A DNA stretch of 64,000 nucleotides from an uncultured Chryseobacterium sp. (lineage in GTDB: Bacteria; Bacteroidota; Bacteroidia; Flavobacteriales; Weeksellaceae). The notes beneath the pieces were generated by a model, which made no database searches, was not told the DNA's origin, and saw nothing but the letters and a program-made list of their open reading frames with translations. The position numbers and the translations under genes are program-made. Where the stretch lies: contig CAJYLH010000030.1 of assembly GCA_913775525.1 (NCBI GenBank), forward strand, positions 1 to 64,000, read 5' to 3'. Shown here piece by piece: positions 36,917 to 57,462 of this stretch. Position 1 is the first letter of the stretch. Every line of letters starts with the position of its first letter.

Positions 36917-39301
36917 ATGAAGTTAAAGATTACCGTACTTTCCGTACTGGTCGGTGCCGGTGTAACCGCTCAGAATATTCAGAATAACCCCGGCAGCAAC
37001 CATGGAAATAAATTCGAGCAACTGGGAACTATCCTCCCTACGCCGAATATATACCGTACGGCATCCGGAGCACCGGGACACGGCTACTGGCAGAACAGGG
37101 CCGACTATGATATCTCCGCCTATCTGGATGAAGACAAAAGGAATTTAAAGGGATCTGAAACGATTACCTATTACAATAATTCTCCGGACGACCTGGATTA
37201 TATCTGGCTTCAGCTGGATGAAAACCAGCAGTCAACCGTAAAAAAAGCAGATTTCCCCTACCCTTCCACCCTGCCCAAAGCGGCCAATGACCAGCAGCTG
37301 AGAGCAACGGAACTTCCGGTGAAAGATAATGGCTATGGTGTAAACCTTGAAAAAGTGACGGATGCATCCGGCAACCCGCTGAAATACACGGTTAACCAGA
37401 CCATGATGCGCATAGACCTGCCGAAAATCCTTAAAAAAGGAGAAAAACTGGTCTTTAAAATTGATTGGAACTATAATATTCCCAACAGAATAAAAATGGG
37501 TGGCCGCGGAGGCTATGAAAACTTTGCCGAAGACGGGAACGACCTGTATACCATGACCCAATGGTACCCGAGGATGTGCGTCTACAGTGACTTCCACGGC
37601 TGGCAGAACCACCAGTTCACCGGAAGAGGCGAATTTGCCCTGGTTTTCGGTAACTTCAAGGTTTCCATGAACGTTCCGGCAGACCACGTGGTAGGCGGTA
37701 CCGGGGAATGTAAAAACTACAGCCAGGTCTTAACGGCCGACCAGCTGGCCAGGTACAATACATCGAAGACCTCTAACGAGCCTGTGGAGATCGTAACACT
37801 GGATGAAGCCAAAAAGGCGGAGAAAAACCACTCCAAGCAGAGAAAAACCTGGAGCTTTGAAGCCAATGACGTAAGGGATTTCGCCTGGACATCTTCAAGG
37901 AAATTCGTTTGGGACGGAATGGGCGTTACCATTCCTGAAAATAACAACAAAGTAATGGCAATGAGCTTCTATCCTAAGGAAGCATATGCATTGTACAGGA
38001 AATTTTCCACCAAGGCAGTAGCCCATACCATCAAAACCTATTCAGAATTTACGATTCCTTATCCTTATCCGGTAGCCCAGTCAGTGGAAGCCGCCAACGG
38101 AATGGAATACCCGATGATCTGCTTCAACTACGGAAGGACGGAGAAAGACGGCACCTATTCGGAGGGAATCAAAAACGGAATGCTGGGGGTAGTGATCCAT
38201 GAAGTAGGACACAACTTCTTCCCGATGATCATCAACTCAGACGAGAGGCAGTGGTCATGGATGGACGAAGGCCTGAATACTTTTGTGGAATACCTTACCG
38301 AAGAACGCTGGGACAATAAATTCCCGTCCAAAAGAGGACCGGCATGGACCATTGTGGATTATATGAAGCTTCCTAAAGATCAGCTGGAGCCCATCATGAG
38401 CAATTCTGAAAACATCATCCAGTTCGGGCCGAATGCCTATTCAAAACCTGCCACGGGACTGAATATTCTCCGTGAAACCATTATGGGAAGGGAGCTGTTT
38501 GATAAAGCATTTAAAACATATTCCAAAAGATGGGCGTTCAGGCATCCTGAACCGGCAGACTTTTTCAGGACCATGGAAGATGCGAGCGGCGAAGACCTCG
38601 ACTGGTTCTGGAGGGGCTGGTTCTACGGCACGGATCCTGTAGACATCTCCATTGACAAAGTGACGGTTGCCACTCCGGACTTCGACACCCCGCCAAGGGA
38701 AAGCAAAGAAGTGAAATATAAAACCGATAAACCCTTGCAGAATGATTTTGAGGACATCTCAAAGATCAGGAACAGACAGGATAAAAACATCACGTTCTAT
38801 GCAGATACGGATAAGCAGGTACAGGATTTCTACTACCGCTATGACAGAGGACAGGAGAAAGTAGACGCCAGTAAAGAATATGCCCTTAAAATGGATGGCA
38901 GCGAAGCCCTGGACAGCAAGGACAAAGAAAAATTCAAAAATATGACGGCGTATCAGGTTGATTTCGTCAACAAAGGCGGGCTAGTGATGCCGATTATCCT
39001 TGAATTTACTTTTGAAGACGGGACAAAGCTGTATGACAAATCTTCCGCACAGATCTGGAGGCTGAACGAGCAGAAAACTTCCAAGACCTACTATTTCGAG
39101 AAAAAACTGAAATCCATCCAGCTGGACCCGATGAGGGAAACAGCAGATATCGATACCTCCAATAACTTCTGGAGCAATGACGGCACATCCGGTGAAACCA
39201 CCAAGTTCCAGCTGTTCAAGCAGAAGCAGGAAGGCGGATCCGCCAGGGGCGCTTCCAGCGGGAAAGTAAACCCGATGCAGGCGGCAGGAAAGAAAAACTA
39301 A
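36917..39301 (+). CDS. Secreted M1-family metallopeptidase
   Basis: 794 residues from ATG at 36917 (the TTG at 36911 adds only two residues). A signal peptide (MKLKITVLSVLVGAGVTAQ) precedes an N-terminal beta domain. The zinc site is H428-E-V-G-H432 with E451 as third ligand (WMDEGLNTFVEYL), spaced HEXXH-18-E as in M1 enzymes. It is probably an aminopeptidase acting outside the cytoplasm. The Gly/Ser-rich, basic tail (after about 770) is of unknown use. The classic GXMEN motif is GMEYPM-like here (NGMEYPMICF), which still supplies the substrate-binding Glu. Confidence 0.93.
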   Translation: MKLKITVLSVLVGAGVTAQNIQNNPGSNHGNKFEQLGTILPTPNIYRTASGAPGHGYWQNRADYDISAYLDEDKRNLKGSETITYYNNSPDDLDYIWLQLDENQQSTVKKADFPYPSTLPKAANDQQLRATELPVKDNGYGVNLEKVTDASGNPLKYTVNQTMMRIDLPKILKKGEKLVFKIDWNYNIPNRIKMGGRGGYENFAEDGNDLYTMTQWYPRMCVYSDFHGWQNHQFTGRGEFALVFGNFKVSMNVPADHVVGGTGECKNYSQVLTADQLARYNTSKTSNEPVEIVTLDEAKKAEKNHSKQRKTWSFEANDVRDFAWTSSRKFVWDGMGVTIPENNNKVMAMSFYPKEAYALYRKFSTKAVAHTIKTYSEFTIPYPYPVAQSVEAANGMEYPMICFNYGRTEKDGTYSEGIKNGMLGVVIHEVGHNFFPMIINSDERQWSWMDEGLNTFVEYLTEERWDNKFPSKRGPAWTIVDYMKLPKDQLEPIMSNSENIIQFGPNAYSKPATGLNILRETIMGRELFDKAFKTYSKRWAFRHPEPADFFRTMEDASGEDLDWFWRGWFYGTDPVDISIDKVTVATPDFDTPPRESKEVKYKTDKPLQNDFEDISKIRNRQDKNITFYADTDKQVQDFYYRYDRGQEKVDASKEYALKMDGSEALDSKDKEKFKNMTAYQVDFVNKGGLVMPIILEFTFEDGTKLYDKSSAQIWRLNEQKTSKTYYFEKKLKSIQLDPMRETADIDTSNNFWSNDGTSGETTKFQLFKQKQEGGSARGASSGKVNPMQAAGKKN

Positions 39302-39336
39302 AAAAAACGGCTAATATCAATTAGCCGTTTTTTTGT
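39301..39336. terminator. Bidirectional terminator after the M1 peptidase
   Basis: aaacggctaat pairs with attagccgttt around a short loop, flanked by A and T runs, between convergent genes. Confidence 0.85.
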
Positions 39337-39338
39337 TT

Positions 39339-39893
39339 TTATAAGATAGAGAATGTAGCAATGATGGTACTTTTCTCATCCAGTGAATTAGGGTTGGTTA
39401 CCGTAATCCCGTATTCACCCGGAGGCTTATCCTTTAACGTGATCAGATAGGAGTTCTGTCCGTACTTCTTCCCGGTGAAGTTAAGGTAATGCAGCTTGTT
39501 CGTTTTCATGGTTCCGAAGGTATTGACAGAAGCCATTTCCGCCCTCCTGAATTTTTTGTTGGAATCGAATTCAAAGATTTTGATGATGGCCATCGGATCG
39601 GTGTTGTTGTCTACCGCACGTACGATGAACTGGATGTCATCACCCTGTCTTACTTTCGTGGAGGAACAGCATCCGTCAATCTGAAGCTTGGATTTTACGC
39701 TCCCGAAACCGGTGATCACCATTCCCGCATTCATGGCAGAACGTGTTTGCGTGGTGTGTTTTTCCAGCAATATCGTAGACTGATCCGGTTTCAGCAACAG
39801 ACATTCGCCAATGAATTCCGGTTCCTGTGCAGTCTGCGAATACATGCTGATGCTGCACAGACTCATTGCAGCCAATAATAGAAATTTTCTCAT
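39339..39893 (-). CDS. Secreted protein of unknown function
   Basis: 184 residues with a signal peptide (MRKFLLLAAMSLCSISMYSQ). The mature part is a beta-rich domain with IDGCCSSTKVRQGDDIQF and ends in KPPGEYGITVTNPNSLDEKS. No family recognised. It has its own promoter upstream and ends at a shared terminator with the M1 peptidase. Confidence 0.75.
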   Translation of the reverse strand: MRKFLLLAAMSLCSISMYSQTAQEPEFIGECLLLKPDQSTILLEKHTTQTRSAMNAGMVITGFGSVKSKLQIDGCCSSTKVRQGDDIQFIVRAVDNNTDPMAIIKIFEFDSNKKFRRAEMASVNTFGTMKTNKLHYLNFTGKKYGQNSYLITLKDKPPGEYGITVTNPNSLDEKSTIIATFSIL

Positions 39894-39920
39894 TTAATTT
39901 AGTTTTTTATAATGATTCTG

Positions 39921-39948
39921 CAAAAATATAATTTAATCCGAAATACAA
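39921..39948 (-). promoter_or_regulatory. Promoter of the 39339-39893 gene
   Basis: On the minus strand, TTG (plus 39946-39948), 17-bp spacer, TATTTTTG (plus 39921-39928), a full consensus match 28 bp before the ATG. Confidence 0.55.
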
Positions 39949-40056
39949 AACATATTTTACTATAATTATTTCAATTCATGATGTAAAAAATTGTCTGCCA
40001 AATTTTCACACCGGTAATAAAAATCCTGCCAAATTTTTCTTTTAGGGAGCTTGGCA

Positions 40057-40064
40057 TATATTTA
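40057..40064 (+). promoter_or_regulatory. Possible -7 element of the groES operon
   Basis: TATATTTA, one base off TAnnTTTG, 41 bp before groES. No CIRCE inverted repeat was seen in the upstream region. Confidence 0.3.
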
Positions 40065-40104
40065 GAGAAGTACAGGATAGAATAATTAAAAAATTAAATA
40101 TATT

Positions 40105-40383
40105 ATGTCAGTAAACTTCAAACCATTAGCAGACAGAGTTCTTGTAGAGCCTATCGCTGCAGAAACAAAGACCGCTTCAGGGATTATTATTCCGGACACC
40201 GCCAAAGAAAAACCACAAGAGGGTACTGTAGTGGCAGTAGGCCCGGGTAAGAAAGATGAGCCAACAACGGTTCAGGTAGGTGATAAAGTACTTTACGGAA
40301 AATACTCCGGTTCTGAATTGAAACTGGACGGGAAAGATTATTTAATTGTAAAGGAATCTGATTTATTAGGAGTGATCGGCTAA
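40105..40383 (+). CDS. groES: Co-chaperonin GroES
   Basis: 92 residues, standard. [20 protein letters not shown] is the conserved start, with the mobile loop [10 protein letters not shown], and [14 protein letters not shown] in the middle. It caps the GroEL ring during folding. GroEL lies downstream but is separated by another gene. Confidence 0.98.
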
Positions 40384-40409
40384 AAGCCGTACGCTTGAGG
40401 CAGTAGGCA

Positions 40410-40769
40410 ATGAGAGACTACAAAAGATATGATACCTGGAAAATGGCCCATGAGCTGGTCAAAGAAATTTATACCATTTCAGAAAATTTTCCAAAATCAG
40501 AACTTTTTGGTTTAACCTCTCAGGTCAGAAGAGCTTCGGTTTCCATTCCCACCAATATTGCGGAAGGTTGTGGAAGATCCACCGATAAAGAATTTGCAAG
40601 ATTTTTAGAGATCAGCATCGGTTCAACGAACGAAACTGAATATTTGCTTTTCCTCGCTTGTGATCTGGGATTCTGTTCTGAAGACGACTTATTGCACCTC
40701 AATCCAAAACTGAATACCGTCAGACAAAAACTTATACAACTTAGAAAAAGATTATTAAATAATAATTAA
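40410..40769 (+). CDS. Four-helix-bundle protein (23S rRNA intervening-sequence type) between groES and groEL
   Basis: 119 residues. [40 protein letters not shown] and [16 protein letters not shown] are clear marks of the S23/IVP four-helix-bundle family, which in some bacteria is encoded inside 23S rRNA insertions. It lies 26 bp after groES and 54 bp before groEL, in the same direction. Imperfect inverted repeats flank it: gcttgaggcagtaggca on the left, and gcttcaggctgtaagcag as the complement on the right. These suggest it was inserted. Its function is unknown. Confidence 0.93.
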
Positions 40770-40805
40770 CTGCTTACAGGCAAGAGCATACTGCTTACAG
40801 CCTGA

Positions 40806-42449
<1,644 letters not shown>

Positions 42450-42469
42450 TGACGTGTCGCCAAGACAAT

Positions 42470-42508
42470 TTATATACTAACCGCTCTATTGTATGGGGCG
42501 GTTTTTTT
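42470..42508 (+). terminator. groEL terminator
   Basis: The hairpin accgctctattgtatggggcggt (centre near 42491) is followed by seven T residues. The preceding stretch tatactaaccg occurs again after the groEL fragment and near 51088. Confidence 0.8.
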
Positions 42509-42535
42509 GTTTACTCATGGTACCATATAAATAGA

Positions 42536-42543
42536 TATATTTG
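42536..42543 (+). promoter_or_regulatory. -7 element TATATTTG for the monooxygenase gene
   Basis: Full TAnnTTTG match 20 bp before the ATG at 42564, after the groEL terminator, so the gene has its own start of transcription. Confidence 0.45.
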
Positions 42544-42563
42544 TAAAAACGATTACAGCAATT

Positions 42564-42875
42564 ATGGAAAACAAATATTTACTTCATGGGAAACTCACCG
42601 CAAAAGCAGGGCACCAAAAGGAACTTGCGGATATTTTAATACAGGCATCCCAACTGGTATCAACAGCTAAAGGCTGTACACTATATGCCGTTAGCCACGA
42701 TCAAGAGGATGAAAATGCTGTTTATGTGACAGAAATCTGGGACAGCAAAGACGACCATGACAATTCTTTGAAAGTTGAAGGCGTCCGAGAACTGATTATG
42801 AAAGCCATGCCGATATTGGATGGGCCACCAACGAAAGGACAGGAACTGGAAATTTTAGGAGGTGTGGGAGTATAA
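42564..42875 (+). CDS. ABM-domain quinol monooxygenase-like protein
   Basis: 103 residues, typical of the small dimeric alpha-beta barrel family (YgiN type). LLHGKLTAKAGHQKELADIL, AKGCTLYAVSHDQEDENAVY and EIWDSKDDHDNSL fit it; VYVTEIWDSKDDHDNS is the usual strand-turn. Members act on quinones or similar aromatics without a metal or cofactor. It is flanked by the real groEL end and by a groEL fragment. Confidence 0.85.
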   Translation: MENKYLLHGKLTAKAGHQKELADILIQASQLVSTAKGCTLYAVSHDQEDENAVYVTEIWDSKDDHDNSLKVEGVRELIMKAMPILDGPPTKGQELEILGGVGV

Positions 42876-42881
42876 AAAATT

Positions 42882-43079
42882 GGAATACAATGCAAAACTT
42901 ACAAATATGTAAATATGCTTGAAGCAGGAATCATCGACCCAACTAGAGTAACAAGAGTTGCCCTTGAAAATGCTGCTTCTGTATCCGGAATGCATTTAAC
43001 CACTGAATGTGTGATCACTGAAGTGAAAAAAGACGAACCAGCTATGCCAATGGGTGGTGGAATACCGGGAATGATGTAA
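42882..43079 (+). pseudogene. Fragment of groEL: last ~66 codons plus terminator
   Basis: From 42915 to the stop at 43077-43079 the sequence aligns without gaps to groEL 42285-42449, with 10 differences in 165 bases. Seven of these are silent; three change residues (K to R, L to H, M to I). Weaker similarity, with a one-base deletion, reaches back to about 42882. The following terminator is also a copy. There is no start, so this is not expressed as a chaperonin. Confidence 0.9.
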
Positions 43080-43107
43080 CATCGTGTCGCAGAGACAATT
43101 TAATATA

Positions 43108-43140
43108 CTAACCGCTCTAATTTTTAGGGCGGTTTTTTTT
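43108..43140 (+). terminator. Second copy of the groEL terminator
   Basis: accgctctaatttttagggcggt followed by eight T residues, preceded by atatactaaccg, equals the groEL terminator apart from the loop. Confidence 0.8.
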
Positions 43141-43183
43141 ATTTCAATTATGGTTTTCTGTAAGAAAAATAGTATATTTATAT

Positions 43184-43191
43184 TAGGTTTG
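43184..43191 (+). promoter_or_regulatory. Possible -7 element TAGGTTTG for the AlbA_2-RRM gene
   Basis: Full TAnnTTTG match 127 bp before the ATG at 43318. No -33 TTG. Weak support. Confidence 0.3.
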
Positions 43192-43317
43192 ATGATTTAC
43201 AAATAGATAACTAAAACCAGAACAACATTAGCATAGTTGTAAACATTGTAATATTGACTCAATGCCTCAATTTGGATGTTAAGTGCAATTATAACCAAAA
43301 GAAATTAAACAAAATTA

Positions 43318-45123
43318 ATGGAAAACATATTACGTCTAAAGGAAAGAGTTGATATAGCAGTTGAAATAAGTGAGAGTTTTTATAGAGAATTTAAAAGTGG
43401 ATTTGAGGGACCTCCTGATAATAAAACACCAAGAGATATAAAAGAGATAAAATATGATATTGCAAAAACTTTAGTTGCTTTTGCTAATGCTGATGGTGGG
43501 GAGCTTTTTGTTGGTATAGAAGATAACAATAAAATAACTGGATTACCTCATTCAGACAAGCAAATAGAAGAAATACTTCATTCATATAAAGATTGTATTT
43601 TAAAAGATACACCAATACCTCTGAAACAAGCAACAATAATTGATTACGATGGATTAAGTATAGTATATTTTTCTGTAAGTAAAGGGACAGAGTTTGTTCA
43701 TCTTACATCTAAAGGTGAATGCTTTCAAAGGAAAGATAGGGAATCAGTTCCTACAGCTTCCGAAAAAATAATTTTCCAAAGGGCTGAAAAAACTTCAAGA
43801 GAATATGATAGATTATTTGTAGAAATTGCAAGTGTAACTGATTTAGATCATGATCTTTTGAATTCTATAGGACAAAGGATTTCAAGGTTGATATCTTCAG
43901 AAAAACTTTTACAATATCTAGATTTAGCTGAATTTGACGGCACTTCTCTAAAACTTAGAAAGTCAGCTTTATTACTTTTTTCTAAGAAATCTAGTAAATG
44001 GCATCCCAGAAGCCAAGTTAGAATTTTTAAAGTTCGAGGAACAGAAGAAAAAACGGGAACAGATTTCAATGTAACTGAGGTGGGTGAAGCTAATGGAAAT
44101 ATTTTCGAGTTGATAGAAAGTAGTTGGGACTTACTTCGTCCACACTTAACAGATACTAAGTTCTCAGATGATGCACTTTTTAAAACACAAATCATGTATC
44201 CTGAATTAGCTTGTAAAGAAGCATTAATTAATGCCATTACACATCGAGATTACAGTTCTGAAGGAAGAGGTATTGAAGTTAAAATATTCGATGACCGACT
44301 GACGATTGAAAATCCAGGCGAACTTCTATCATCCATTACTCTAAAGGATATTCAATCTCTAGAAGGTGTTCATTTATCTAGGAATACATATATTGCAAGA
44401 GTTTTAAGAGAAACAGGATATATTAGAGAACTGGGAGAAGGTATTAGACGAATCTATGATTTACTTAAAAGTAACGATATGATTCCTCCTGAGATTAAAT
44501 CAGCCAATAAAACGTATTCAATAACATTATTTTATAAACATATTTATTCAAAAGAAGAACAACTATGGCTTGATAATTTTAAGCATTTGGAATTGTCTAG
44601 GGAACAAATGACAGTTATTAGACTAGGTGTTGATGGCAGACTTATCTCTGCAAAAGAAATTTTTGAAACGGTTGGAATAGTTGATGAAAAAACTTACAGA
44701 GAACTAATTGAATCTTTAAGAGTTTTATCCGTCTTAGAAACAACTTTGGACGGAAATCAAGTTTCTTTCTTAAGGAAAAAATACAACGGCTCAAGAAAGG
44801 CTGTGCCTAGGTATACTATAAAGCTTCCCAATGAAACAGTTAACACTAAAAATAATAATGAAATTGATGGGTCAGAATATGCACGAATTTATGTAGGTAA
44901 TATTCCTTATGATTTACAAGAAGATGAAATAAATGAAGCATTAAGCAAATTTGGAGAAGTTGTAGATGTAACTATTCCAAGACGGTCTAACAAACAAACC
45001 AAAGGTTTTTGTTTCGTTGAATTTGACAAAAAATCACATGCAACAAATGCACTAAACAGTTCCTCTGATATATATATTAGAGATAGGAAACTTTATCTAA
45101 GAGAGGCGGACAAAATGAAGTGA
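43318..45123 (+). CDS. AlbA_2 (Schlafen-type) plus GHKL ATPase-like protein with C-terminal RNA-recognition motif
   Basis: 601 residues. About 15-150 is a Schlafen AlbA_2 nucleic-acid-binding domain (ESFYREFKSGF, KTLVAFANADGGELFVGIED, EEILHSYKDCI). About 290-400 is the HATPase_c_4 domain of this family, with ELACKEALINAITHRDYSS and RLTIENPGEL. A winged-helix-like stretch follows (about 430-500). The last 80 residues are an RRM: RNP2 IYVGNI (524-529) and RNP1 KGFCFVEF (562-569), with the aromatic residues that stack on RNA. AlbA_2-HATPase_c_4 proteins are common; an RRM on the end is unusual to my knowledge. Base and codon use are clearly more AT-rich than neighbours, so transfer is likely. 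Function is unknown: RNA-triggered regulation or defence are possibilities. Confidence 0.88.
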   Translation: MENILRLKERVDIAVEISESFYREFKSGFEGPPDNKTPRDIKEIKYDIAKTLVAFANADGGELFVGIEDNNKITGLPHSDKQIEEILHSYKDCILKDTPIPLKQATIIDYDGLSIVYFSVSKGTEFVHLTSKGECFQRKDRESVPTASEKIIFQRAEKTSREYDRLFVEIASVTDLDHDLLNSIGQRISRLISSEKLLQYLDLAEFDGTSLKLRKSALLLFSKKSSKWHPRSQVRIFKVRGTEEKTGTDFNVTEVGEANGNIFELIESSWDLLRPHLTDTKFSDDALFKTQIMYPELACKEALINAITHRDYSSEGRGIEVKIFDDRLTIENPGELLSSITLKDIQSLEGVHLSRNTYIARVLRETGYIRELGEGIRRIYDLLKSNDMIPPEIKSANKTYSITLFYKHIYSKEEQLWLDNFKHLELSREQMTVIRLGVDGRLISAKEIFETVGIVDEKTYRELIESLRVLSVLETTLDGNQVSFLRKKYNGSRKAVPRYTIKLPNETVNTKNNNEIDGSEYARIYVGNIPYDLQEDEINEALSKFGEVVDVTIPRRSNKQTKGFCFVEFDKKSHATNALNSSSDIYIRDRKLYLREADKMK

Positions 45124-45191
45124 AACTGCACGTAAAAAGCAGTTTGGTAGAATGGCTCCGGTCATGGCCAATTGAAGTTGTTTACCACCCG

Positions 45192-45280
45192 CTGGCGCGA
45201 GCGTCACGCTTGCACACACTCCCACGAGTCTTTTGTCACAGTAAAAAACTAATAAAGCACGAGCGATACGCTCGCGCTAG
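45192..45280. repeat. REP-like inverted pair (REPIN-like)
   Basis: ctggcgcgagcgtcacgcttgcac (left unit 45192-45215, written here in two parts in meaning) is mirrored by the complement of 45257-45280, which reads ctagcgcgagcgtatcgctc and then gtgc. About 18 of 24 positions match, giving a GC-rich stem with a 41-bp loop in otherwise AT-rich DNA. Such pairs are often spread by RAYT-type transposases. Confidence 0.55.
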
Positions 45281-45368
45281 TAAAGAAATGAAAGTGTTAA
45301 TAAAAATCACCAATCCTCCCAGAATAATTTACCCACCCACTCCGCTTCCAATCCGCAAAACTTTTACC

Positions 45369-45376
45369 TATATTTG
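45369..45376 (+). promoter_or_regulatory. -7 element TATATTTG for the XRE-lipoprotein pair
   Basis: Full TAnnTTTG match, 22 bp before the ATG. The longer stretch TTTTACCTATATTTGTTT is repeated exactly upstream of the 57514 gene. Confidence 0.5.
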
Positions 45377-45397
45377 TTTTTGTTAAAATAAACAAAT

Positions 45398-45796
45398 ATG
45401 CAGGACAAGAAAATACATCAGGGCAGGAACATCAAGCGGTTCCGGGAAATGCTGGGCATCAAGCAGGAAGCACTGGCTTTCGATCTCAATTGCAGCCAGC
45501 AAAAGATATCTATTCTTGAGCAAAAAGAGACTGTCGAAAAGGATATGCTGGAAAAAATCGCCGGCCTTCTGAATGTTCCGGTAGAAGCCATTGAAAACAT
45601 GGAGGAAGAGCAAGCCATCAGTATTATTTCCAGTACATTTAACAACAGTTCCCTTACAGGTGTTGTAAATAACACAACCCATCCGGTTGATGCACTTCTT
45701 CAGTTACACGAAGAGAAAATTGCCCTGTACGAAAGAATGCTGAAAGAAAAAGACGAAATGATGGCGAAGCTGGAGCAATACCTGCAGAAACCGTGA
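45398..45796 (+). CDS. XRE-family regulator with C-terminal coiled coil
   Basis: 132 residues. About 10-65 is a Cro/C1-type helix-turn-helix (FREMLGIKQEALAFDLNCSQ, QKISILEQKETVEKDML). After a Ser/Thr-rich linker the last 35 residues (EEKIALYERMLKEKDEMMAK) form a coiled coil, likely for dimerisation. Such standalone regulators are frequent in Chryseobacterium. The following lipoprotein overlaps its stop by four bases. Confidence 0.85.
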   Translation: MQDKKIHQGRNIKRFREMLGIKQEALAFDLNCSQQKISILEQKETVEKDMLEKIAGLLNVPVEAIENMEEEQAISIISSTFNNSSLTGVVNNTTHPVDALLQLHEEKIALYERMLKEKDEMMAKLEQYLQKP

Positions 45797-46371
45797 TCCG
45801 GATTTTTCTGGCGGTGCTTTCGGGTATTCTTCTGTTGAGCTGTTCCAAAACTGAAAAACAAGAAAGCACTGAACTGAACCGCATTCTGAATGCCGTCCTG
45901 AAAAATGAATCGGCCCGCAGGGAATACGCCCATCTTCAATACACCATCAGTAAAGAACTTCAGCCGTTAGCGGTATATGTCCCAACGGCAAAAGAGATAT
46001 CCGGAGAAGAGCCGGGACCGCCTTCATTTTCCGGCAAAAATATTGTCAGTATTCTTGATTTAAATCACAGTCGCTCAGATGAGAGAAGATCGGATTCTTT
46101 ACATCTGTTAAAACAAAAACGGTATGTTTTTGATTCCATTCCGCTGGATAAAACCATCAATCCAAACATCAGGCTGGCCGACAAAACAGAAGCGGATCAG
46201 CGGAACAGGATTTACCGGTTTTCAAATCCGCTTTATCTTAACGATCATACCGTGTATATCGAATCAATGTTCTTCGATACTTCTTTCGGGATCGGCTTCG
46301 GATACCTGTTGGTAAAACAGGAAGATGGAAGCTGGATTGTGAAGAAAATGATCAATACTTTTATTACCTAA
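45793..46371 (+). CDS. Lipoprotein of unknown function
   Basis: 192 residues from a GTG start that overlaps the previous stop (GTGA), so translation is probably coupled. The signal MIRIFLAVLSGILLLSCSK gives lipidated C17. The mature part has charged helices, then ends SFGIGFGYLLVKQEDGSWIV, recalling secreted proteins that sense or bind. No family recognised. Confidence 0.72.
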   Translation: MIRIFLAVLSGILLLSCSKTEKQESTELNRILNAVLKNESARREYAHLQYTISKELQPLAVYVPTAKEISGEEPGPPSFSGKNIVSILDLNHSRSDERRSDSLHLLKQKRYVFDSIPLDKTINPNIRLADKTEADQRNRIYRFSNPLYLNDHTVYIESMFFDTSFGIGFGYLLVKQEDGSWIVKKMINTFIT

Positions 46372-46457
46372 AAAATGCAGAATGTATTCTCTACATTCTT
46401 CGTTTTACTTTACCGTGATTTTTCTTAGTTTAGCTACCTAAAAATTAATCCTTAAAA

Positions 46458-46784
46458 ATGAAAATCGAATTAAAACCGGAACTCTCTATTGAGCACGACG
46501 AATTTCCGAAAATGATCGAAGTCGATATCGATGAAAATTCATCCTCAATCGGAGAACTGATTTCTAAAATTCATGAGCAGACGAATATTCCCGCCAATAT
46601 AGAACTGAAGTGGGAAGATTTTATCGAAAAAATATCCTGTACCTATTATGTCATTGAAAAAGGCGAATATGATGACTACCTCATGATTACAGACATGGAA
46701 GAAAAAATCGGTAATTTTCCCAAACACGGGCAGGAAGGGGCAATGATTATCGTAATCGAAGGAATAACTGGGCGTGTTAATTAA
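46458..46784 (+). CDS. Small protein of unknown function upstream of a 2OG-oxygenase
   Basis: 108 residues, acidic, no signal. The pattern of alternating strands and one helix (MIEVDIDENSSSIGELISKI, then YLMITDMEEKIGNF and EGAMIIVIEGITGRVN) suggests a ubiquitin-like beta-grasp or similar fold, but I cannot confirm it. It overlaps the start of the next gene by 11 bp, so the two are co-translated and may be partners. Confidence 0.65.
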   Translation: MKIELKPELSIEHDEFPKMIEVDIDENSSSIGELISKIHEQTNIPANIELKWEDFIEKISCTYYVIEKGEYDDYLMITDMEEKIGNFPKHGQEGAMIIVIEGITGRVN

Positions 46785-47469
46785 TCATCAGTGGGGACAG
46801 CATCCAGGTGACGCGGCCATCAAAGAAAGCCTGCAGCAGGGATATCTGCTGGTCATAAAAAATTTTCCTCTGTCCGATGAGGAACTGCAATTATTCATCA
46901 GCCGGTTGGGAACCGCATTAAACGAAAGGCGGAATAACAATGGAAAAGCGGTTTTTAATGTGATCATTTCCCGCCACAACAACTTTTTCACCTCCATTGC
47001 TAATTCCAATCTGGCTTTTCCACTGCATACAGACTGCGCCGATTTTGATGAAATTCCAAACACCATAGGCCTATTGTGCGTGGAACCGGATGAGGAAGGC
47101 CAGGGTACCAATACCTTTATGCTTCTGAGCAGCCTTTTAAGACATCTGCCCGAAGACGAAAAGCAGAAAATGCTCGGTAAAAAATGGAAGTTCGGAAATC
47201 AGCAGAGAAGTATTTTATCGTTTGAAGACGGAAACTATGCCTTCTGCTACGACAGGATTACGATGGAATCTTTCTCCAGACTTGAGGCAACAGAAATTGA
47301 TGAATTAAATAAACTCGATAAGCTTTTTAAAAGTCTTTCCTTCGAGATTAAACTGGAAAAAGGTGACCTTATCTTATTCAGAAACGATTTAATGCTGCAC
47401 GGACGGGATAAAATGCATATCGATTCAAAAAGATGGATTAAAAGGATCAGGTTTGATATGAAATATTGA
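46774..47469 (+). CDS. TauD/TfdA-like Fe(II)/2-oxoglutarate oxygenase
   Basis: 231 residues from a GTG start inside the previous gene's end. H85-T-D87 in FPLHTDCADFDE and H209 in LMLHGRD are the iron-binding facial triad, and R224 or R226 (WIKRIRF) the 2-oxoglutarate-binding arginine. The order and spacing fit TauD/TfdA-type enzymes, which hydroxylate small molecules. The substrate is unknown; the preceding small gene may be involved. Confidence 0.8.
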   Translation: MLINHQWGQHPGDAAIKESLQQGYLLVIKNFPLSDEELQLFISRLGTALNERRNNNGKAVFNVIISRHNNFFTSIANSNLAFPLHTDCADFDEIPNTIGLLCVEPDEEGQGTNTFMLLSSLLRHLPEDEKQKMLGKKWKFGNQQRSILSFEDGNYAFCYDRITMESFSRLEATEIDELNKLDKLFKSLSFEIKLEKGDLILFRNDLMLHGRDKMHIDSKRWIKRIRFDMKY

Positions 47470-47482
47470 AAGCCTCTTGCTA

Positions 47483-47941
47483 ATGAACCGTAACCAAAAG
47501 AAATTTGAAGAAATTAAACAGCTCCTCATTGAAAAATTAGGAGACCAGGCTGAATATTCAAAAGATGAAGACGGAACTGAATATGTGACTGTTAAAAATT
47601 CAGATTTCTGGGTTTCAACAACTTTTGGGGAATTGGTGGTGGGTTATGGTTTACATCATACGCATTTCAGCCAAGAATTCGAAAATTTAGACGACGGACT
47701 CGTTCAAGCCTTTGATTTATTAACCAACAGGATCAAAACAACTCAGTACATTAAAGGAAATACAGTATTTAAAACAACAGTTGAAATTGAATATCCCGAT
47801 GCAACGCTTGTCAATATCGGAAGTTCAGGCCTGGTCCTGTTTCCTTTCTGGAAAAAGACAAAACTTGAGGTAAAGTATGATGAAAAAATTTTAGAGAAAA
47901 AAGAAATTGAGGATCAGGTGAATTTAATCTTAGAAACCTGA
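47483..47941 (+). CDS. Cytosolic protein of unknown function
   Basis: 152 residues from ATG at 47483 (TTG at 47477 gives two more). No signal peptide. The centre has EYVTVKNSDFWVSTTFGELV and a GLHHTHFS segment, then beta-strands. The type resembles small SMI1- or immunity-like proteins, but I recognise no family. It follows the oxygenase gene by 13 bp. Confidence 0.65.
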   Translation: MNRNQKKFEEIKQLLIEKLGDQAEYSKDEDGTEYVTVKNSDFWVSTTFGELVVGYGLHHTHFSQEFENLDDGLVQAFDLLTNRIKTTQYIKGNTVFKTTVEIEYPDATLVNIGSSGLVLFPFWKKTKLEVKYDEKILEKKEIEDQVNLILET

Positions 47942-47977
47942 ATTGATTAATATTTTAAAAATTTAAATGAACCATCG

Positions 47978-48436
47978 ATGATTAAATTCTACACTTTAAC
48001 AACCGCAATCCTTTTATTTTTCCTCGGCTGTACAAAAAAAGACGACATGAAATACAATGTGGGCCAGGAATGGAAATACAAAACCAGACCGGGGGAAGAA
48101 AACTCGACCCTGAAAATTTTAAAGGTTGAAGAATATCCAACTGTTGGAAAAGTGATTCATATTTCGGTAAGCGGATTAAAGATGAAAAATCCTCAGCACC
48201 CAACAGGAATTGCCGATAAAATAAGCCATCTTCCGATTACTGAAGAAACATTGGATAAAAGTATCATCAGCATTAAAAATGATACCCGCCAAATGCCCGA
48301 CTCCACTGAAATGGATGGTTATTCTTACTGGAAAAAAGAGTTTGATAAAGGAAATGCCGGCGTGTTTTCCATTCCCGTTTCCGAGATTGTAAACTCAATG
48401 GAAAAATCAATTGTTTCAGGAGACTATACCAAGTAG
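47978..48436 (+). CDS. Small lipoprotein of unknown function
   Basis: 152 residues. MIKFYTLTTAILLFFLGCTK gives lipidated C18. YNVGQEWKYKTRPGEENSTL and KVIHISVSGLKMKNP suggest a single beta domain. No family recognised. Confidence 0.68.
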   Translation: MIKFYTLTTAILLFFLGCTKKDDMKYNVGQEWKYKTRPGEENSTLKILKVEEYPTVGKVIHISVSGLKMKNPQHPTGIADKISHLPITEETLDKSIISIKNDTRQMPDSTEMDGYSYWKKEFDKGNAGVFSIPVSEIVNSMEKSIVSGDYTK

Positions 48437-48444
48437 ATTTACCC

Positions 48445-48452
48445 TAAATTTG
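48445..48452 (+). promoter_or_regulatory. -7 element TAAATTTG for the DUF2461 gene
   Basis: Full TAnnTTTG match 15 bp before the ATG at 48467. Confidence 0.4.
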
Positions 48453-48466
48453 CTAAAAACCGTAAG

Positions 48467-49132
48467 ATGAAAAAAGCCTTTGAATTCCTGAAGCAGCTGG
48501 AAAGAAACAACAACCGGGAATGGTTTACCGCCCACAAAGCGGAGTATGAGGCGATAGCAAAAGAAAACAAAGCCCTTTTTAATCAGATCCATGCAGAGCT
48601 TCAGCAACATGACCAGGTACCGGGAATCCATGTGTACCGGATTTACCGGGATGTCCGGTTTTCTAAGGATCAGACGCCATACAAAACCCATTTCGGAGTC
48701 GGGTATTCCCGCCTGAAACCGATGCTGAGAGGAGGCTATTACATCCATCTTGAACCCGGCAACAGTTTCGTGGGCGGCGGGTTCTGGGGACCGGATGCCA
48801 AAGACCTGCTCCGCATCCGCAAAGAATTCGAAATCAGCACCGCAGGAATTGAAAAGATTACTTCAGATCAAACCTTCATCAATTATTTTAAAGAAATAAA
48901 AGGCGATACCGTGAAAACCGCACCCAGAGAGTTCGATAAAAATCATCCGGCCATCGATCTCATTAGGAAAAAGCAGTATGTTGTTATGCGTCCGCTGACC
49001 GATCAGGAAGTTTTTTCTGCCGATTTCCCGAAAGAAGCGGTGCTCACCTTATTGGCCATGCGCCCTTTTTTCGATTACATGAGCGAAGTACTTACGACGG
49101 ATTTGAACGGAGCGTCTTTAATTGAAACATAA
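48467..49132 (+). CDS. DUF2461-family protein
   Basis: 221 residues. LERNNNREWFTAHKAEYEAI, then HVYRIYRDVRFSKDQTPYKT and GGGFWGPDAKDLLRIRKEF are the standard signature of the DUF2461/TIGR02453 family. It is widely distributed but has no assigned function. No signal peptide. Confidence 0.92.
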   Translation: MKKAFEFLKQLERNNNREWFTAHKAEYEAIAKENKALFNQIHAELQQHDQVPGIHVYRIYRDVRFSKDQTPYKTHFGVGYSRLKPMLRGGYYIHLEPGNSFVGGGFWGPDAKDLLRIRKEFEISTAGIEKITSDQTFINYFKEIKGDTVKTAPREFDKNHPAIDLIRKKQYVVMRPLTDQEVFSADFPKEAVLTLLAMRPFFDYMSEVLTTDLNGASLIET

Positions 49133-49264
49133 AAGATGATTGATAATTGGCAAGCGTACCCACTCTTGCTACCACTGAAAAGGAAGATAAAAACATTCAA
49201 AAATCCACCATTTCCGTATCTTTACTTTCATTCAAACGCAAATCATATACACAAAACCTTACTT

Positions 49265-49993
49265 ATGGAAAACGATCACACCAACTTTTACGAAAAGGAC
49301 ATCAGGGAATTAAAGGAAGGATTAACCCCTTTTCCTGAAAATATATTTGTGGCAGACCAAGCCTGGCTAAGCAATTATGTATTGCCTTTGATATCGGTGG
49401 ATTTGGGGATACTATGGCCGGATTTAAAAGGAACCGTGATACACCTTCTCAATCCTACTGAACCTAACGAGGGAGTAATTGGTGAAAAAACCACCGATTT
49501 CTACACTGAATTCTGTACAGAAAACTGGTTGGCCTTCCGGCTTACGGAAGATAACCAATATGCTTTCTTAGGGAAGGAAGAATATTTCCTGTCTGCTCCG
49601 AAACATCAGGATGCCATTGATGCTGACTTTACAGAACACATCAAGACCATCCGGGACAATTACCAGAGGACGAAGGCCAGATTTAAAATGACAGGCCAGC
49701 TGTTACCCTGGCAGGAAGACAACCCGCAAAGTTTCCTGGACACGTTAGGCGGAGAACTGTGGGAAGGCAACTGGACATTCATGGCGCCTGTTCCGCCCGC
49801 CTTTGAAATGAATGTTGATGACTCCGGTGAAGACCTGCCTAATGATGGGATTTCAATGACCTATCAGGGTAAAGAATTCCGGTATGTGGGTGAAGTATCC
49901 GGATACAATTACTGCGGAGAGGGAGCCGATGCTATCCTGCTGTTCTATGAACCGGAAAGCCGTATGGTGTTATTTACTTACGACTGGACGTAA
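49265..49993 (+). CDS. Cytosolic protein of unknown function
   Basis: 242 residues from ATG at 49265 (MENDHTNFYEKD); an earlier in-frame ATG at 49136 would add 43 residues that look non-coding. Acidic and aromatic-rich, with WEGNWTFMAPVPPAFEMNVD and FRYVGEVSGYNYCGEGADAI. No family recognised. Confidence 0.68.
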   Translation: MENDHTNFYEKDIRELKEGLTPFPENIFVADQAWLSNYVLPLISVDLGILWPDLKGTVIHLLNPTEPNEGVIGEKTTDFYTEFCTENWLAFRLTEDNQYAFLGKEEYFLSAPKHQDAIDADFTEHIKTIRDNYQRTKARFKMTGQLLPWQEDNPQSFLDTLGGELWEGNWTFMAPVPPAFEMNVDDSGEDLPNDGISMTYQGKEFRYVGEVSGYNYCGEGADAILLFYEPESRMVLFTYDWT

Positions 49994-50117
49994 AACCAAT
50001 GCCTTAACATGGCGAATACAAAATCAGACCATTTTCAGCAGGCAGACTGAAGAACAATAACAACAACAGTCTTTTAACCGAGCATTATTAATTAGAAAAA
50101 TAAAAAAACAAAATACA

Positions 50118-50651
50118 ATGAGAAAAATAATCTATTACGTGGCAAGCTCACTGGACGGCTTTATTTCAGGCCTGAATGACGACATCAGCGGTTTCGTGGG
50201 AACAGGAAACGGCGTGGACCAATACCTTGCAGATCTGGCCCGGTTCGATACGGTTATCATGGGAAGGAATACCTATGAATTTGGCTATAAATACGGCATG
50301 GAGCCCGGGCAGCCGGCCTATCCGCATATGAAGCATTATATTTTTTCAGACACCCTGGAACTTGAAAATCCGCATCCTCAGGTACAGGTAAAAAAGCTGG
50401 ACCTTTCCGAAATAGACCAGCTGCAAAGAGAAGAAGGAACAGACATTTATCTTTGCGGCGGCGGGCAGTTGGCAGGCTGGCTTCTGGACCATCAGAAAAT
50501 CAGCACGGTGAAGGTCAAACTGAATCCTCTGATATTGGGAGAAGGGGTCACGCTGTTCGGGGATTCTACTTCAAGCTATAAACTGGAGCTGGTAGACAGT
50601 TCAATATATGAGGGCGGATTACAATTGATGACATTCAACATTATGTATTAG
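50118..50651 (+). CDS. Dihydrofolate-reductase-like (RibD C-terminal) protein
   Basis: 177 residues. RKIIYYVASSLDGFISGLND, TVIMGRNTYEFGYKYG and DIYLCGGGQLAGWLL are typical of the RibD_C/YyaP-YwjB group, which keeps the NADPH-binding fold of dihydrofolate reductase. Substrate unknown. It precedes the DUF4180 gene by 31 bp. Confidence 0.92.
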   Translation: MRKIIYYVASSLDGFISGLNDDISGFVGTGNGVDQYLADLARFDTVIMGRNTYEFGYKYGMEPGQPAYPHMKHYIFSDTLELENPHPQVQVKKLDLSEIDQLQREEGTDIYLCGGGQLAGWLLDHQKISTVKVKLNPLILGEGVTLFGDSTSSYKLELVDSSIYEGGLQLMTFNIMY

Positions 50652-50682
50652 TGATGAATATGGAAAACAAAATTTAATCAGA

Positions 50683-51045
50683 ATGAAAATCGAAACCTAC
50701 CCTATTAACAACCTTAAGATTGCGGAAATTATAACAGATGAGGTTGTTTTAAGTACTCCAGAAGAAGGATTGGACTTTTTAGGGAACCTGTATTATCAGG
50801 GCTTTGATGGTATAATGATCCATAAAGAAAATATCACTTCAGATTTTTTTGATTTAAAAACTAAAATCGCAGGAGAAATCCTTCAGAAATTCGTACAATA
50901 CCAGATGCCGCTGATTATTATTGGTGATTTTTCTCAAGTCAGCAGCAAGAGCTTACAGGACTTCATATACGAAAGCAATACAGGCAGGCAGGTCAATTTC
51001 CTTTCTTCCCGATCGGAAGCCATACAAGCCTTTTCCCGGATATGA
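50683..51045 (+). CDS. DUF4180-family protein
   Basis: 120 residues. GLDFLGNLYYQGFDGIMIH, then DLKTKIAGEILQKFVQYQ and QDFIYESNTGRQVNFL match DUF4180 as I recall it. No known function. It lies directly after the reductase-like gene and before a terminator related to the groEL one. Confidence 0.85.
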   Translation: MKIETYPINNLKIAEIITDEVVLSTPEEGLDFLGNLYYQGFDGIMIHKENITSDFFDLKTKIAGEILQKFVQYQMPLIIIGDFSQVSSKSLQDFIYESNTGRQVNFLSSRSEAIQAFSRI

Positions 51046-51089
51046 AGGCGAAGAATTTGAGTTGATCAAGTGTCACTAAAACTGCCTAA

Positions 51090-51126
51090 TATACTAACCG
51101 TCCTGTTTACAGGCCGGTTTTTTGTT
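51090..51126 (+). terminator. Terminator resembling the groEL terminator
   Basis: atatactaaccg followed by tcctgtttacaggccggttttttg. The loop differs, but atatactaaccg and the closing ccggtttttt repeat the groEL arrangement at 42470 and 43108. Confidence 0.65.
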
Positions 51127-51131
51127 ATCTT

Positions 51132-51139
51132 TATATTTG
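51132..51139 (+). promoter_or_regulatory. -7 element TATATTTG for the acetyltransferase gene
   Basis: Full TAnnTTTG match, 33 bp before the ATG at 51173. Confidence 0.4.
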
Positions 51140-51172
51140 AATCACATCAACCCCATTAAAAAATTATAATCT

Positions 51173-51652
51173 ATGAAAATAACAGATAACAGCTTTATAT
51201 TTAAGCAGCTGGACAAGAAAGATGAATTGCCTTATGAACTGCTGCTGCTTGCAGACCCGTCCAAGAAGATGATTGATCAGTACATCCGGAAATCGGATGT
51301 GTTTACCGCCCTATACCAGGAAGAAACCATAGGCGTGGTCGCATTGTTCCCGCTCACGAAAAATACCGCTGAAATTAAAAATGTTGCGGTAAAAACTGAA
51401 TTTCAAAGACATGGGATCGGGACTTTCCTCATTGAAAATGCGATCCAGGCAGCCCAAAGCAACGGCATGAAAAGCGTTGTTATCGGAACAGCCAATTCCA
51501 GCATCGGGCAGCTCTTCCTCTACCAGAAATTAGGTTTTGAAATGACGGAGGTGAAAAAAGATTTCTTCCTGGAAAATTATGCCGAAACTATTTTTGAGAA
51601 CGGCCTCCAGGCGAAACATATGGTAGTGATGGAGAGAGCGCTGAAGTGCTAG
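51173..51652 (+). CDS. GNAT-family N-acetyltransferase
   Basis: 159 residues. The acetyl-CoA-binding motif A is AVKTEFQRHGIGTFLIENAI, with QxxGxG-like RHGIGT. VALFPLTKNTAEIKNVAV is the strand before it. LYQKLGFEMTEVKKDFF near the end is the usual motif B. The substrate is unknown; the length is normal. Confidence 0.92.
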   Translation: MKITDNSFIFKQLDKKDELPYELLLLADPSKKMIDQYIRKSDVFTALYQEETIGVVALFPLTKNTAEIKNVAVKTEFQRHGIGTFLIENAIQAAQSNGMKSVVIGTANSSIGQLFLYQKLGFEMTEVKKDFFLENYAETIFENGLQAKHMVVMERALKC

Positions 51653-52015
51653 ACAGCCAGTAATGCCAGTGAGACAATTTATTATTTTAAAGAAATATGC
51701 AGCAGCCTTGCGCAGTCCTCCGAATATCTCCTGCAAATTGCGTGAAATCTTCGGAGGGTTACGCTGATTTCAAACAGACTGCAGGAATCCTCAGCAGCCC
51801 TTATTTGTTTTCAACCAAACCGGTTAAGATCATCGTAGGCTTCCATGTATGATAAACAATGGTGTTTGCAGTCTTCGCAGCCATTCTTCAACCGATCCCT
51901 CCGGGTTTAATATTGGTTTTCAAAAATAAAGTATATTTACTCATGCATTGTATGAGTCTGACCGATTCCCAATGACAGCATAATGCCAACTATAAAAACA
52001 CTTAAAAAATATAGC
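51653..52015. other. 363-bp gap with an inverted repeat, no gene seen
   Basis: cctccgaa (51717-51724) pairs with ttcggagg (51750-51757), extended by gcg/cgc on the outside. The segment around it (51710-51765) is GC-richer than its surroundings. It may be a repeat unit, a structured RNA or the remnant of a terminator. A gtgagacaattta stretch at 51668-51683 resembles DNA just downstream of groEL. The remainder is unremarkable. Confidence 0.35.
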
Positions 52016-52429
52016 ATGAAAAAAAACCATTCAACAAATTATTTCGACACTTTTATTGAAGTGGCAGAAGATACTAAACGGGACAGCGGCACCAAACCAC
52101 CGGCAAAAGAAAGGAAAACCGTCGCCGAAATGCAGTACGATTATATTGCCGCACATCCTTACCTATATACCTCAGACGATGTTCTGTTCCGCGTATTTGC
52201 AGACAGGAAAGACCTGACCAAAGCAGAGGAGGAAGAGGCCAGGAAAGAGTTCTTTTCCAAAGGCCAGCCCTGCTTTAGGGCTTCCCCACTCACCAAAATG
52301 TATGGTTTCGGGATCCACTGCAACAGCGAAGGTAAGATCGCCCTGTACGGAATGGAAACGGAAGCCTATCAGAAATTCATGACTGATCCTAAGGTCAAAA
52401 AGGTCCAGGCTATGAAATCTGGGAAGTAA
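52016..52429 (+). CDS. DUF6157-family protein
   Basis: 137 residues from ATG at 52016 (MKKNHSTNYFDTFIEVAED); an upstream ATG at 51983 adds 11 residues. The start, then KPPAKERKTVAEMQYDYIAA, YLYTSDDVLFRVFADRKDL and KMYGFGIHCNSEGKIALYGM, match DUF6157 as I recall it. No known function. Confidence 0.82.
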   Translation: MKKNHSTNYFDTFIEVAEDTKRDSGTKPPAKERKTVAEMQYDYIAAHPYLYTSDDVLFRVFADRKDLTKAEEEEARKEFFSKGQPCFRASPLTKMYGFGIHCNSEGKIALYGMETEAYQKFMTDPKVKKVQAMKSGK

Positions 52430-52609
52430 CCATTAGAGTAACCTCACAACATCTGAACCGTGTTCAAAGCTTTAAGGGTAATTATCATATATAATCCGTT
52501 TTATTATGGACTTTTAGTCCGTTAACCATGTACAATCCTTTATCAACCTATAAAAGGATGGTATATCGCAATAAAAACGTACATAAGGGATCAATATTTT
52601 ACATAGATA

Positions 52610-53488: not shown

Positions 53489-53943
53489 CAGATTGTAATC
53501 TGGCAATTCTGGAATCGGGGAAGTAATTCTGAGGAATATGAGCAGAAATTAAGTATATTATTCATTCCAAACAGTCAGCTGAAAATATCTTACTTAGAGA
53601 TAAATTGTAGACTTAGCCATACTTCTTTTCATTTATAGTTTTCTGAATTTTTGTTCCCTTAGGGAAACTCAAAATTTCTAAATGACATATCGCACTGTAA
53701 CGCATCTAACAACAATATCATAGAATTTCCAACAGATAACAAAATGCAATTTCATCATAAAAACCATTACTAAAATAAAATAATACATAGCTGGTTTTAT
53801 TGTATAATCTATATTAAAAATTAATAATTTACAACAAATTAATCCCAATTAATCATATATATAAAGAATGAATTATATCACAGACTATTGTATTTTATAT
53901 TTTAAATACATAAATTACACGCTCAATTTTATAAATAATAACA
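53489..53943. other. 455-bp AT-rich gap
   Basis: No open frame or clear promoter was recognised; the last 150 bp are very AT-rich, as is common before lipoprotein genes in this region. Confidence 0.4.
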
Positions 53944-54492: not shown

Positions 54493-54499
54493 AAAAACT

Positions 54500-54540: not shown

Positions 54541-54548
54541 CATATATC

Positions 54549-57447: not shown

Positions 57448-57462
57448 TGCCTGAATTTTACC

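Follow-up and report, generated by a model that had tools for sequence, protein, structure and literature searches.

A Schlafen-Family AlbA_2-GHKL Protein with a C-Terminal RRM, Encoded behind Duplicated groEL Ends in Chryseobacterium

The closest described bacterial relatives of the gene considered here are Schlafen ribonucleases (RNases) whose chain also includes a minimal histidine kinase and a winged helix-turn-helix (wHTH) domain; the available part of one report places them beside bacteriophage exclusion (BREX) loci and their kin in 1017 taxa or more (PMC12839542). We analyzed a 64,000-nt stretch of DNA from an uncultured Chryseobacterium sp. (contig CAJYLH010000030.1), hereafter the window, in which the gene at 43318-45123 encodes P0001, a protein that joins a Schlafen AlbA_2 domain, a GHKL ATPase domain, and a C-terminal RNA-recognition motif (RRM). 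As far as the available text of PMC12839542 describes them, the BREX-linked proteins resemble P0001 in carrying an RNase-type AlbA_2 domain and a GHKL domain in one chain and in their defence setting, whereas chains of the P0001 family end in an RRM or a cold-shock-like domain. GHKL-wHTH Schlafen relatives have already been published, and the RRM form appears to be a variant of them. No BREX partners were noticed by eye among the starts of the open reading frames (ORFs) in the window, and no BREX model was searched. The likeliest reading of the sequence makes P0001 a mobile RNase that serves in defence and carries a tail for binding RNA.

Mammalian Schlafens provide a second comparison. Among SLFN11, SLFN12, SLFN13, and SLFN14, it is SLFN11 for which a catalytic E-x4-E motif and an Asp were aligned here with those of P0001; neither a GHKL domain nor an RRM of the mammalian proteins was aligned in this work. 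For SLFN13, tRNA cleavage has been shown, according to the available part of PMC5862951. The mammalian nuclease combines two Schlafen folds, as the accessible text of PMC10567574 presents it; the P0001 chain has one. A third likeness was found in the PADLOC database, in which the prokaryotic Argonaute (pAgo) model PDLC02394 matched the AlbA_2-GHKL stretch of P0001 (83.3 bits over residues 39-420); this likeness is limited to positions 48-449 of the 1121 in the profile, the rest being unmatched.

Domains and conserved residues of P0001

The gene and its parts are as follows.

43318..45123, plus strand: AlbA_2-GHKL-RRM protein P0001, 601 aa (ORF and Pfam)
43372-43374, plus strand: putative catalytic E19, just ahead of the Pfam-matched stretch (alignment and SLFN11 profile search)
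43375..43752, plus strand: Schlafen AlbA_2 domain, residues 20-145 (Pfam)
43387-43389, plus strand: putative catalytic E24 (alignment and SLFN11 profile search)
43522-43524, plus strand: putative catalytic D69 (alignment and SLFN11 profile search)
44263..44529, plus strand: GHKL ATPase domain HATPase_c_4, residues 316-404 (Pfam, conserved columns, and relationship to PDB 3lmm)
44545..44832, plus strand: segment between the ATPase domain and the RRM, about residues 410-505 (winged-helix look by eye; profile matches insignificant)
44887..45093, plus strand: C-terminal RRM, residues 524-592, with RNP2 IYVGNI and RNP1 KGFCFVEF (Pfam)

An earlier note on this DNA had read the same three domains from the letters, and a domain search placed all of them above their Pfam cut-offs. 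SLFN_AlbA_2 scored 65.9 bits against a cut-off of 25.3, which assigns P0001 to the Schlafen family, and HATPase_c_4 scored 76.4 bits (cut-off 26), with the GHKL domain lying behind AlbA_2 as in the BREX-linked Schlafens. The RRM_1 match of 66.4 bits (cut-off 20.7) spans profile positions 1-69 of 70, so that the RRM is complete, as the note had described it from its RNP1 and RNP2. The top matches of the tail in a PDB sequence search were poly(A)-binding protein and other RRMs. Equally borne out was the AT-richness of the gene: its G+C content of 0.316 is the lowest of the 54 window ORFs of at least 100 aa (mean 0.414, z -2.6). Shortly 3' of the gene, an inverted repeat with G+C-rich 19-nt arms lies at 45192-45280 of the window.

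To evaluate the candidate catalytic sites, we used an alignment of 51 homologs (A3) from which broken frames and forms of roughly 410 aa were excluded. E19, E24, and D69 were unchanged in 51/51 rows. In a wider set of 82 rows that includes fragments, E19 was found in 78 (4 gaps), E24 in 76 (3 gaps and 3 other letters), and D69 in 78 (3 gaps and one Asn). A profile of 33 AlbA_2 domains, searched against the PDB, matched SLFN12 best (E 2.8e-8), followed by 5yd0, deposited as Schlafen 8 (1.6e-5), and SLFN11 (2.2e-5 and 1.1e-4); chains of SLFN14 and SLFN5 were matched as well. In the alignment with SLFN11 (7zel), ES--EFK stands opposite ESQLVEFK and GVEDD opposite GVDDK, so that the triad is paired at the level of the sequence profile, and we take the SLFN11 residues aligned with E19, E24, and D69 to be its catalytic ones. 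Rat SLFN13 requires E205, E210, and D248 for tRNA cleavage, according to the available part of PMC5862951, and the equivalent carboxylates appear to be kept in the P0001 family.

The other two domains are likewise conserved. In the GHKL part, E301, N305, H309, R310, Y312, G334, E371, G373, E374, and G375 are kept in 51/51 rows of A3; E301, N305, and the HRDY motif lie just upstream of the HATPase_c_4 match, and this part of P0001 is a sequence relative of PDB 3lmm. Among 42 RRM tails, the positions that contact RNA in RRMs are aromatic in 39 (RNP2-2), 41 (RNP1-3), and 35 (RNP1-5), which suggests that the RNA-contacting aromatics are mostly kept.

Residues 410-505 looked by eye like a winged helix, a reading that the profile tests did not confirm: the segment had no Pfam match, no HTH was found in the whole of P0001 at E values up to 1, and HTH or transcription-factor chains of the PDB were reached only at E 0.85 and 1.2. 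Given this winged-helix look, the RRM may have been added behind a wHTH rather than in its place.

Distribution and history of the architecture

Bacterial and archaeal genomes were scanned with an alignment of three sequences as the query. The best 80 of the 167 relatives obtained were retained, and with an RRM profile made for this work the RRM was found in 41 of these 80 loci in addition to the window. The Schlafen AlbA_2-GHKL-RRM architecture is real and widespread, and the fusion is not a one-off. The earlier note had weighed an architecture both common and long described: common it is, but no description of AlbA_2-GHKL-RRM proteins was found among the titles and abstract openings listed from open-access papers. 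Its remark that bacterial RRMs are usually small and free-standing agrees with the RRM-only matches in the family sample, which are ORFs of 94-157 aa. A chance RRM was set aside in view of the 66-bit score and these 41 loci, and a read-through or sequencing artefact in view of the single open frame of most homologs, with L044 (RRM in a separate, overlapping ORF) and L065 (broken frame) as exceptions. At L072 the RRM fell under the Pfam cut-off, with 17.3 of 20.7 bits.

The titles of the RRM-bearing records name Bacteroidota, Ignavibacteria, Proteobacteria, Acidobacteria, Actinobacteria, Bacillota, Chloroflexi, and a Hodarchaeota metagenome-assembled genome (MAG), although MAG bins can mislead. 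Within the genus of the window, matches at E 1e-40 or better occurred in 4 of 173 genomes, its own included; in a phylum-wide sample, 4 of 395 genomes passed E 1e-80, again with its own, and the other three matched without the RRM end. The nearest relatives of P0001 are from Pedobacter (76% identity) and an Ignavibacteriales MAG (75%), while the copies of the congeners G148 and G185 are 51-53% identical.

For the history of the family, a tree of the AlbA_2-GHKL core was built from 64 rows with the tail omitted, using a quick method with midpoint rooting and support from the Shimodaira-Hasegawa-like approximate likelihood ratio test (SH-aLRT) only; near-copies, fragments, and broken frames were dropped, and labels of tails other than the RRM were set by length or by eye. 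Rows with an RRM were strongly clustered, with 6 label changes compared to 19.1 in shuffles. P0001 fell into a seven-row set (support 100) with copies from Pedobacter, Parapedobacter, Arcicella, Flavobacteriaceae, Bacteroides, and Ignavibacteriales; the proteins of its congeners G148 and G185 stand apart from this set. This placement outside the congeners points to horizontal transfer of the AlbA_2-GHKL-RRM gene. If the tree is rooted with the long-branched rows labelled wHTH by eye, the simplest reading is that the RRM was present early and was later lost in a clade of roughly 410- and 506-aa forms.

The gene was further considered as a phage or plasmid gene, and this was set aside, no plasmid or phage record spanning 80% of it. 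Two IMG/VR contigs (L111 and L112) carry copies with a match that extends across the RRM, and weaker AlbA_2-GHKL relatives occur on 109 plasmid records, 33 of them from Pseudosulfitobacter.

The gene array behind groEL

The gene for P0001 lies downstream of groEL, in a part of the window with the following features.

40824..42449, plus strand: native groEL (recognised from sequence)
42263..42508, plus strand: native groEL 3' end with its terminator (stem 42479-42503), used as the tail query (repeat search)
42564..42875, plus strand: antibiotic-biosynthesis-monooxygenase (ABM) gene, 103 aa, cargo (Pfam)
42893..43139, plus strand: repeat copy of the groEL 3' end and its terminator (stem 43110-43134), with 90% identity to the native end (repeat search)
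45398..45796, plus strand: HTH protein, right flank of the slot (Pfam and comparison with G227 and G130)

The duplicated groEL end that the earlier note had reported is thus present on both sides of the ABM gene, and the second tail joins the upstream DNA about 201 nt before its stop codon. The AlbA_2-GHKL-RRM gene sits between this tail and the HTH gene. From groES to the end of the window (40105-64000, 24 kb), every called ORF is on the plus strand, and between groES and groEL, at 40410-40769, lies a gene for a four-helix-bundle protein (23S rRNA intervening-sequence protein), with a similar gene upstream of groEL in G148 and G227.

The duplication in the window is no local accident but part of a pattern across the genus. 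The 246-bp groEL 3' end was matched at E 0.001 in 117 of 118 genus genomes, with two or more matches in 64 and a maximum of eight; only six candidate stretches were scored per genome, and the matches counted include short ones. A 188-bp coding query, run against 148 genomes of the family, had two or more matches in 12 of 20 genomes of the genus and in 0 of 128 of other genera, where 124 had one match and 4 had none. As controls, the pyrG 3' end was single in 60/60 genomes, and the radA 3' end was found in 57/60, two of them with an extra, chance-like match of 45 or 29 nt. In view of these controls, a general duplication of gene ends was dropped as an explanation.

We fetched 59 regions, 54 of which were selected for several tail matches, and added the window to give 60. 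They hold 185 tail matches, native ends included, all 185 in the orientation of groEL; in G082, two tails are 50 kb apart. Among the 114 intervals longer than 250 nt (median length 1006 nt), 83 hold exactly one ORF of at least 80 aa. The 206 cargo ORFs form 121 families, and the same families reappear in differing orders; that of the ABM gene is present in 6 of the 60 regions, window included. Among the families listed, up to 25 per list, the cargo includes AbiTii, AAA_15/AAA_21 (AbiEii-type AAA), OLD-TOPRIM, Mrr, Fic, SLATT_5, AIPR, a D12 methylase, another AlbA_2-GHKL protein, and a DUF4917 protein with a SIR2 match just under the cut-off. Strand bias was discarded as proof of cassettes, since ORFs past the last tail (783 plus, 39 minus) are as one-sided as those inside the arrays (182 and 9); in the 59 fetched regions, the plus strand carries 1043 of the 1109 ORFs behind groEL that reach 100 aa. 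Among the titles and abstract openings listed from open-access papers, none described groEL-tail arrays.

Three of the four close homologs in the 173 genus genomes lie directly behind a groEL 3' end; a probability of 4e-7 for three of four falling within 20 kb behind groEL is a post hoc figure. In G148, the RRM form is immediately 3' of native groEL, and in G185 it is located away from groEL. G227 has a 505-aa AlbA_2-GHKL protein without the RRM (44% identity), flanked by a groEL tail and by a gene related to the HTH gene, while in G130 the HTH gene follows groEL about 640 nt past the terminator with no AlbA_2-GHKL gene between. Window and G227 share both the HTH flank and the leader that follows the terminator, though their proteins belong to different clades. 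These common flanks weaken the idea that three homologs entered the groEL slot independently, and they do so for the window and G227 genes.

Such arrays recall integrons and CALIN elements (clusters of attC sites lacking integron-integrases). As the available part of PMC9024848 presents these, the likeness lies in mostly single-gene units in one orientation with a repeat between them and, at some arrays, in a tyrosine recombinase gene alongside that runs the opposite way. In contrast, the repeat of the groEL array is the 3' end of a protein-coding gene with its terminator, its recombinase is under the integron-integrase cut-off, and attC was not found with Rfam. The same text reports only one complete integron within Bacteroidetes proper, that of Salinibacter; earlier finds had been integrases without cassettes.

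Two routes could account for the growth of the arrays. A site-specific, integron-like tyrosine recombinase may have laid down tails and cargo, with points in the groEL 3' end as its attachment site, a reading that falls just short of an even chance. In G275, G239, and G112, such a recombinase gene, encoded on the opposite strand, follows a groEL 3' end by 6-64 nt, and its product matched NF040815 ("site-specific tyrosine recombinase/integron integrase") with 220.2 bits, the cut-off being 220; against the integron model TIGR02249, however, it reached 198.3 of 265 bits. In G271, G130, G250, and G216, a copy that is broken or more distant follows groEL at about 3.4, 1.3, 15, and 14 kb, respectively, those of G271 and G130 being the broken ones (seven loci in all, L201 and L212-L217). 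A search of 171 genomes placed 7 of the 17 closest recombinase relatives, itself included, within 15 kb behind groEL, whereas the other 10 have no groEL tail within the 13-15 kb fetched, and most arrays have no such recombinase among their cargo. The shared orientation of the 185 tails is as this route would have it, and 13 of 64 distinct cargo joins fall in a single 8-nt stretch (-140 to -133 from the groEL stop), a concentration reached in 0 of 5000 uniform draws; many joins nevertheless lie elsewhere, between -250 and -66. Nothing att-like was returned by Rfam, which gave an FMN riboswitch only, and no attC match was obtained in six fetched stretches or in the window from 38000 to 58000, the presence of an attC model in Rfam being unconfirmed. 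The riboswitch is at L150:2547-2672 on the minus strand, in the G161 stretch, about 10 kb from the last groEL tail.

Members of the recombinase family were also observed behind an apparent L-asparaginase gene, identified by eye, in four genomes (L218-L221), each locus having one downstream gene from a family also seen behind groEL. That no asparaginase tails stand behind the recombinase at these four loci speaks against the site-specific route. At ten loci that do not adjoin groEL, the overlap in genes with the regions behind groEL came to 13 of 57 on the downstream side and 8 of 56 on the upstream side, a weak signal.

Homologous recombination between groEL 3' ends could instead add or exchange cassettes, for example after uptake of DNA from a foreign species, with an occasional illegitimate join giving a new cassette; we consider this route possible, on a tentative footing. 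For 50 of 56 tails, the native groEL end of another genome outranked their own (ties unseparated), which stood at a median rank of 8 of 58. The joins are scattered, and within a cargo family the point at which cargo meets tail varies rather little (median difference 36 nt compared to 78.5 in shuffles, a value as low being reached in 0 of 2000; when measured from the raw start of the tail only, 52 compared to 72, with 46 of 2000 as low). This route leaves unexplained the junction hot spot, the choice of groEL, given the pyrG and radA controls, and the restriction to this genus. We tentatively propose that in Chryseobacterium the groEL 3' end, coding part included, may be the recombination site of an integron-like capture locus in which cassettes of one cargo gene and a groEL tail accumulate while groEL stays intact, with a recombinase in some strains and the Schlafen-GHKL-RRM gene among the captured genes.

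Proposed function

We consider it about evenly balanced whether P0001 is a solitary, horizontally spreading effector of the Schlafen family, an ATP-gated, RNA-sensing RNase that is probably anti-phage. In such an effector, the AlbA_2 domain would be a metal-dependent RNase with tRNA or a similar molecule as its target, probably working as an oligomer, because two folds of this kind are required in mammalian Schlafens. The GHKL domain would form a nucleotide-gated switch, and the RRM would bind single-stranded RNA, either a phage or aberrant transcript as the trigger or the substrate itself. Activation would then shut down translation and stop phage growth. The gene would have been acquired as cargo of the capture zone behind groEL, in which copies of the groEL 3' end separate the units.

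In favour of this proposal are the three domains of P0001, the carboxylate triad with its SLFN11 alignment, the mostly kept RRM aromatics, the signs of mobility, and the place of three of four close homologs behind groEL ends, a setting with AbiTii, AbiEii-type AAA, OLD-TOPRIM, Mrr, DUF4917, Fic, and another AlbA_2-GHKL protein as further cargo. The neighbours of homologs elsewhere bear on it as well. At L035, genes of a type III-like restriction-modification (R-M) system are near the AlbA_2-GHKL gene; HsdM and HsdS are upstream at L063; L051 has Vsr; DUF5343 and DUF5712 proteins occur at L034 and L051; L054 has a BglII-type nuclease two ORFs away; and a relaxase and an HNH protein are neighbours at L032 and L107, respectively (all Pfam). 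Four loci thus have R-M genes (type I or type III-like), Vsr, or a BglII-type nuclease no more than two ORFs from the gene. PADLOC, run on 126 of 142 neighbours, gave 219 families, and the 25 listed include HerA models and R-M models of types I, II, and IV. The largest neighbour family is ABC transporters (9 loci), and TonB-type receptors also occur, at varying distance; an operon partner was dropped from consideration, as the families common to the neighbourhoods are broad and their distances run from 70 nt to 9 kb.

Several observations weigh against the effector proposal. The ten neighbours scanned with Pfam were chosen by eye from the 142, with no control set. A sister clade lacks the RRM, so the RRM is not essential to the core. 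Two AlbA_2-GHKL proteins (L061:5164-7119 and L097:10010-11938) have a cold-shock-like tail in the place of the RRM; this swap of tails speaks for the proposal, but the matches of 18.0 and 25.8 bits stay under the Pfam cut-off of 27. The SLFN12 alignment begins only at profile position 33 and has no Asp at the position of D69. AlbA_2-GHKL proteins are also termed transcriptional regulators.

In line with that last usage, P0001 might instead be a transcriptional or post-transcriptional regulator in which AlbA_2 binds without cutting, the GHKL domain changes shape with the nucleotide, and the RRM selects target RNAs. Annotations of the plasmid relatives name ATP-binding or RNA-binding domains, with no pointer to cleavage; the tail has a sub-threshold match to NF058537, a family of small RNA-binding regulators (53.3 bits, cut-off 100); and a winged helix may precede the RRM, a reading that the profile tests did not confirm. 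We regard this role as unlikely: binding alone would not require the three Schlafen catalytic carboxylates kept in 51/51 rows, and the gene spreads as a lone unit, among broad neighbour families such as ABC transporters and TonB receptors at variable distance.

An enzyme of RNA repair, processing, or stress, carried as accessory cargo and not chiefly anti-phage, seems similarly improbable. It would suit the RRM-type loci that lie amid housekeeping genes (e.g., L041, L044, L049, and L050) and the array cargo without signs of defence, much of which is, by an uncounted impression, hydrolases, lipoproteins, and unknowns; both observations also count against the anti-phage proposal. Such a role fits less well with the R-M and other defence genes near several homologs and with the patchy occurrence in 4 of 173 congeneric genomes and 4 of 395 in the phylum sample at E 1e-80.

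Where the earlier note had left the choice between a regulator and a defence protein, defence is the better supported, by published bacterial Schlafens, the catalytic residues, and some of the contexts, and the RNA sensing that it proposed remains a prediction from sequence. A Schlafen nuclease with an RRM would be a single-protein system that joins RNA recognition to RNA cleavage. The groEL gene-capture zone is unusual and merits a study of its own: a capture locus that uses the end of a housekeeping gene as its repeat would escape searches for attC.

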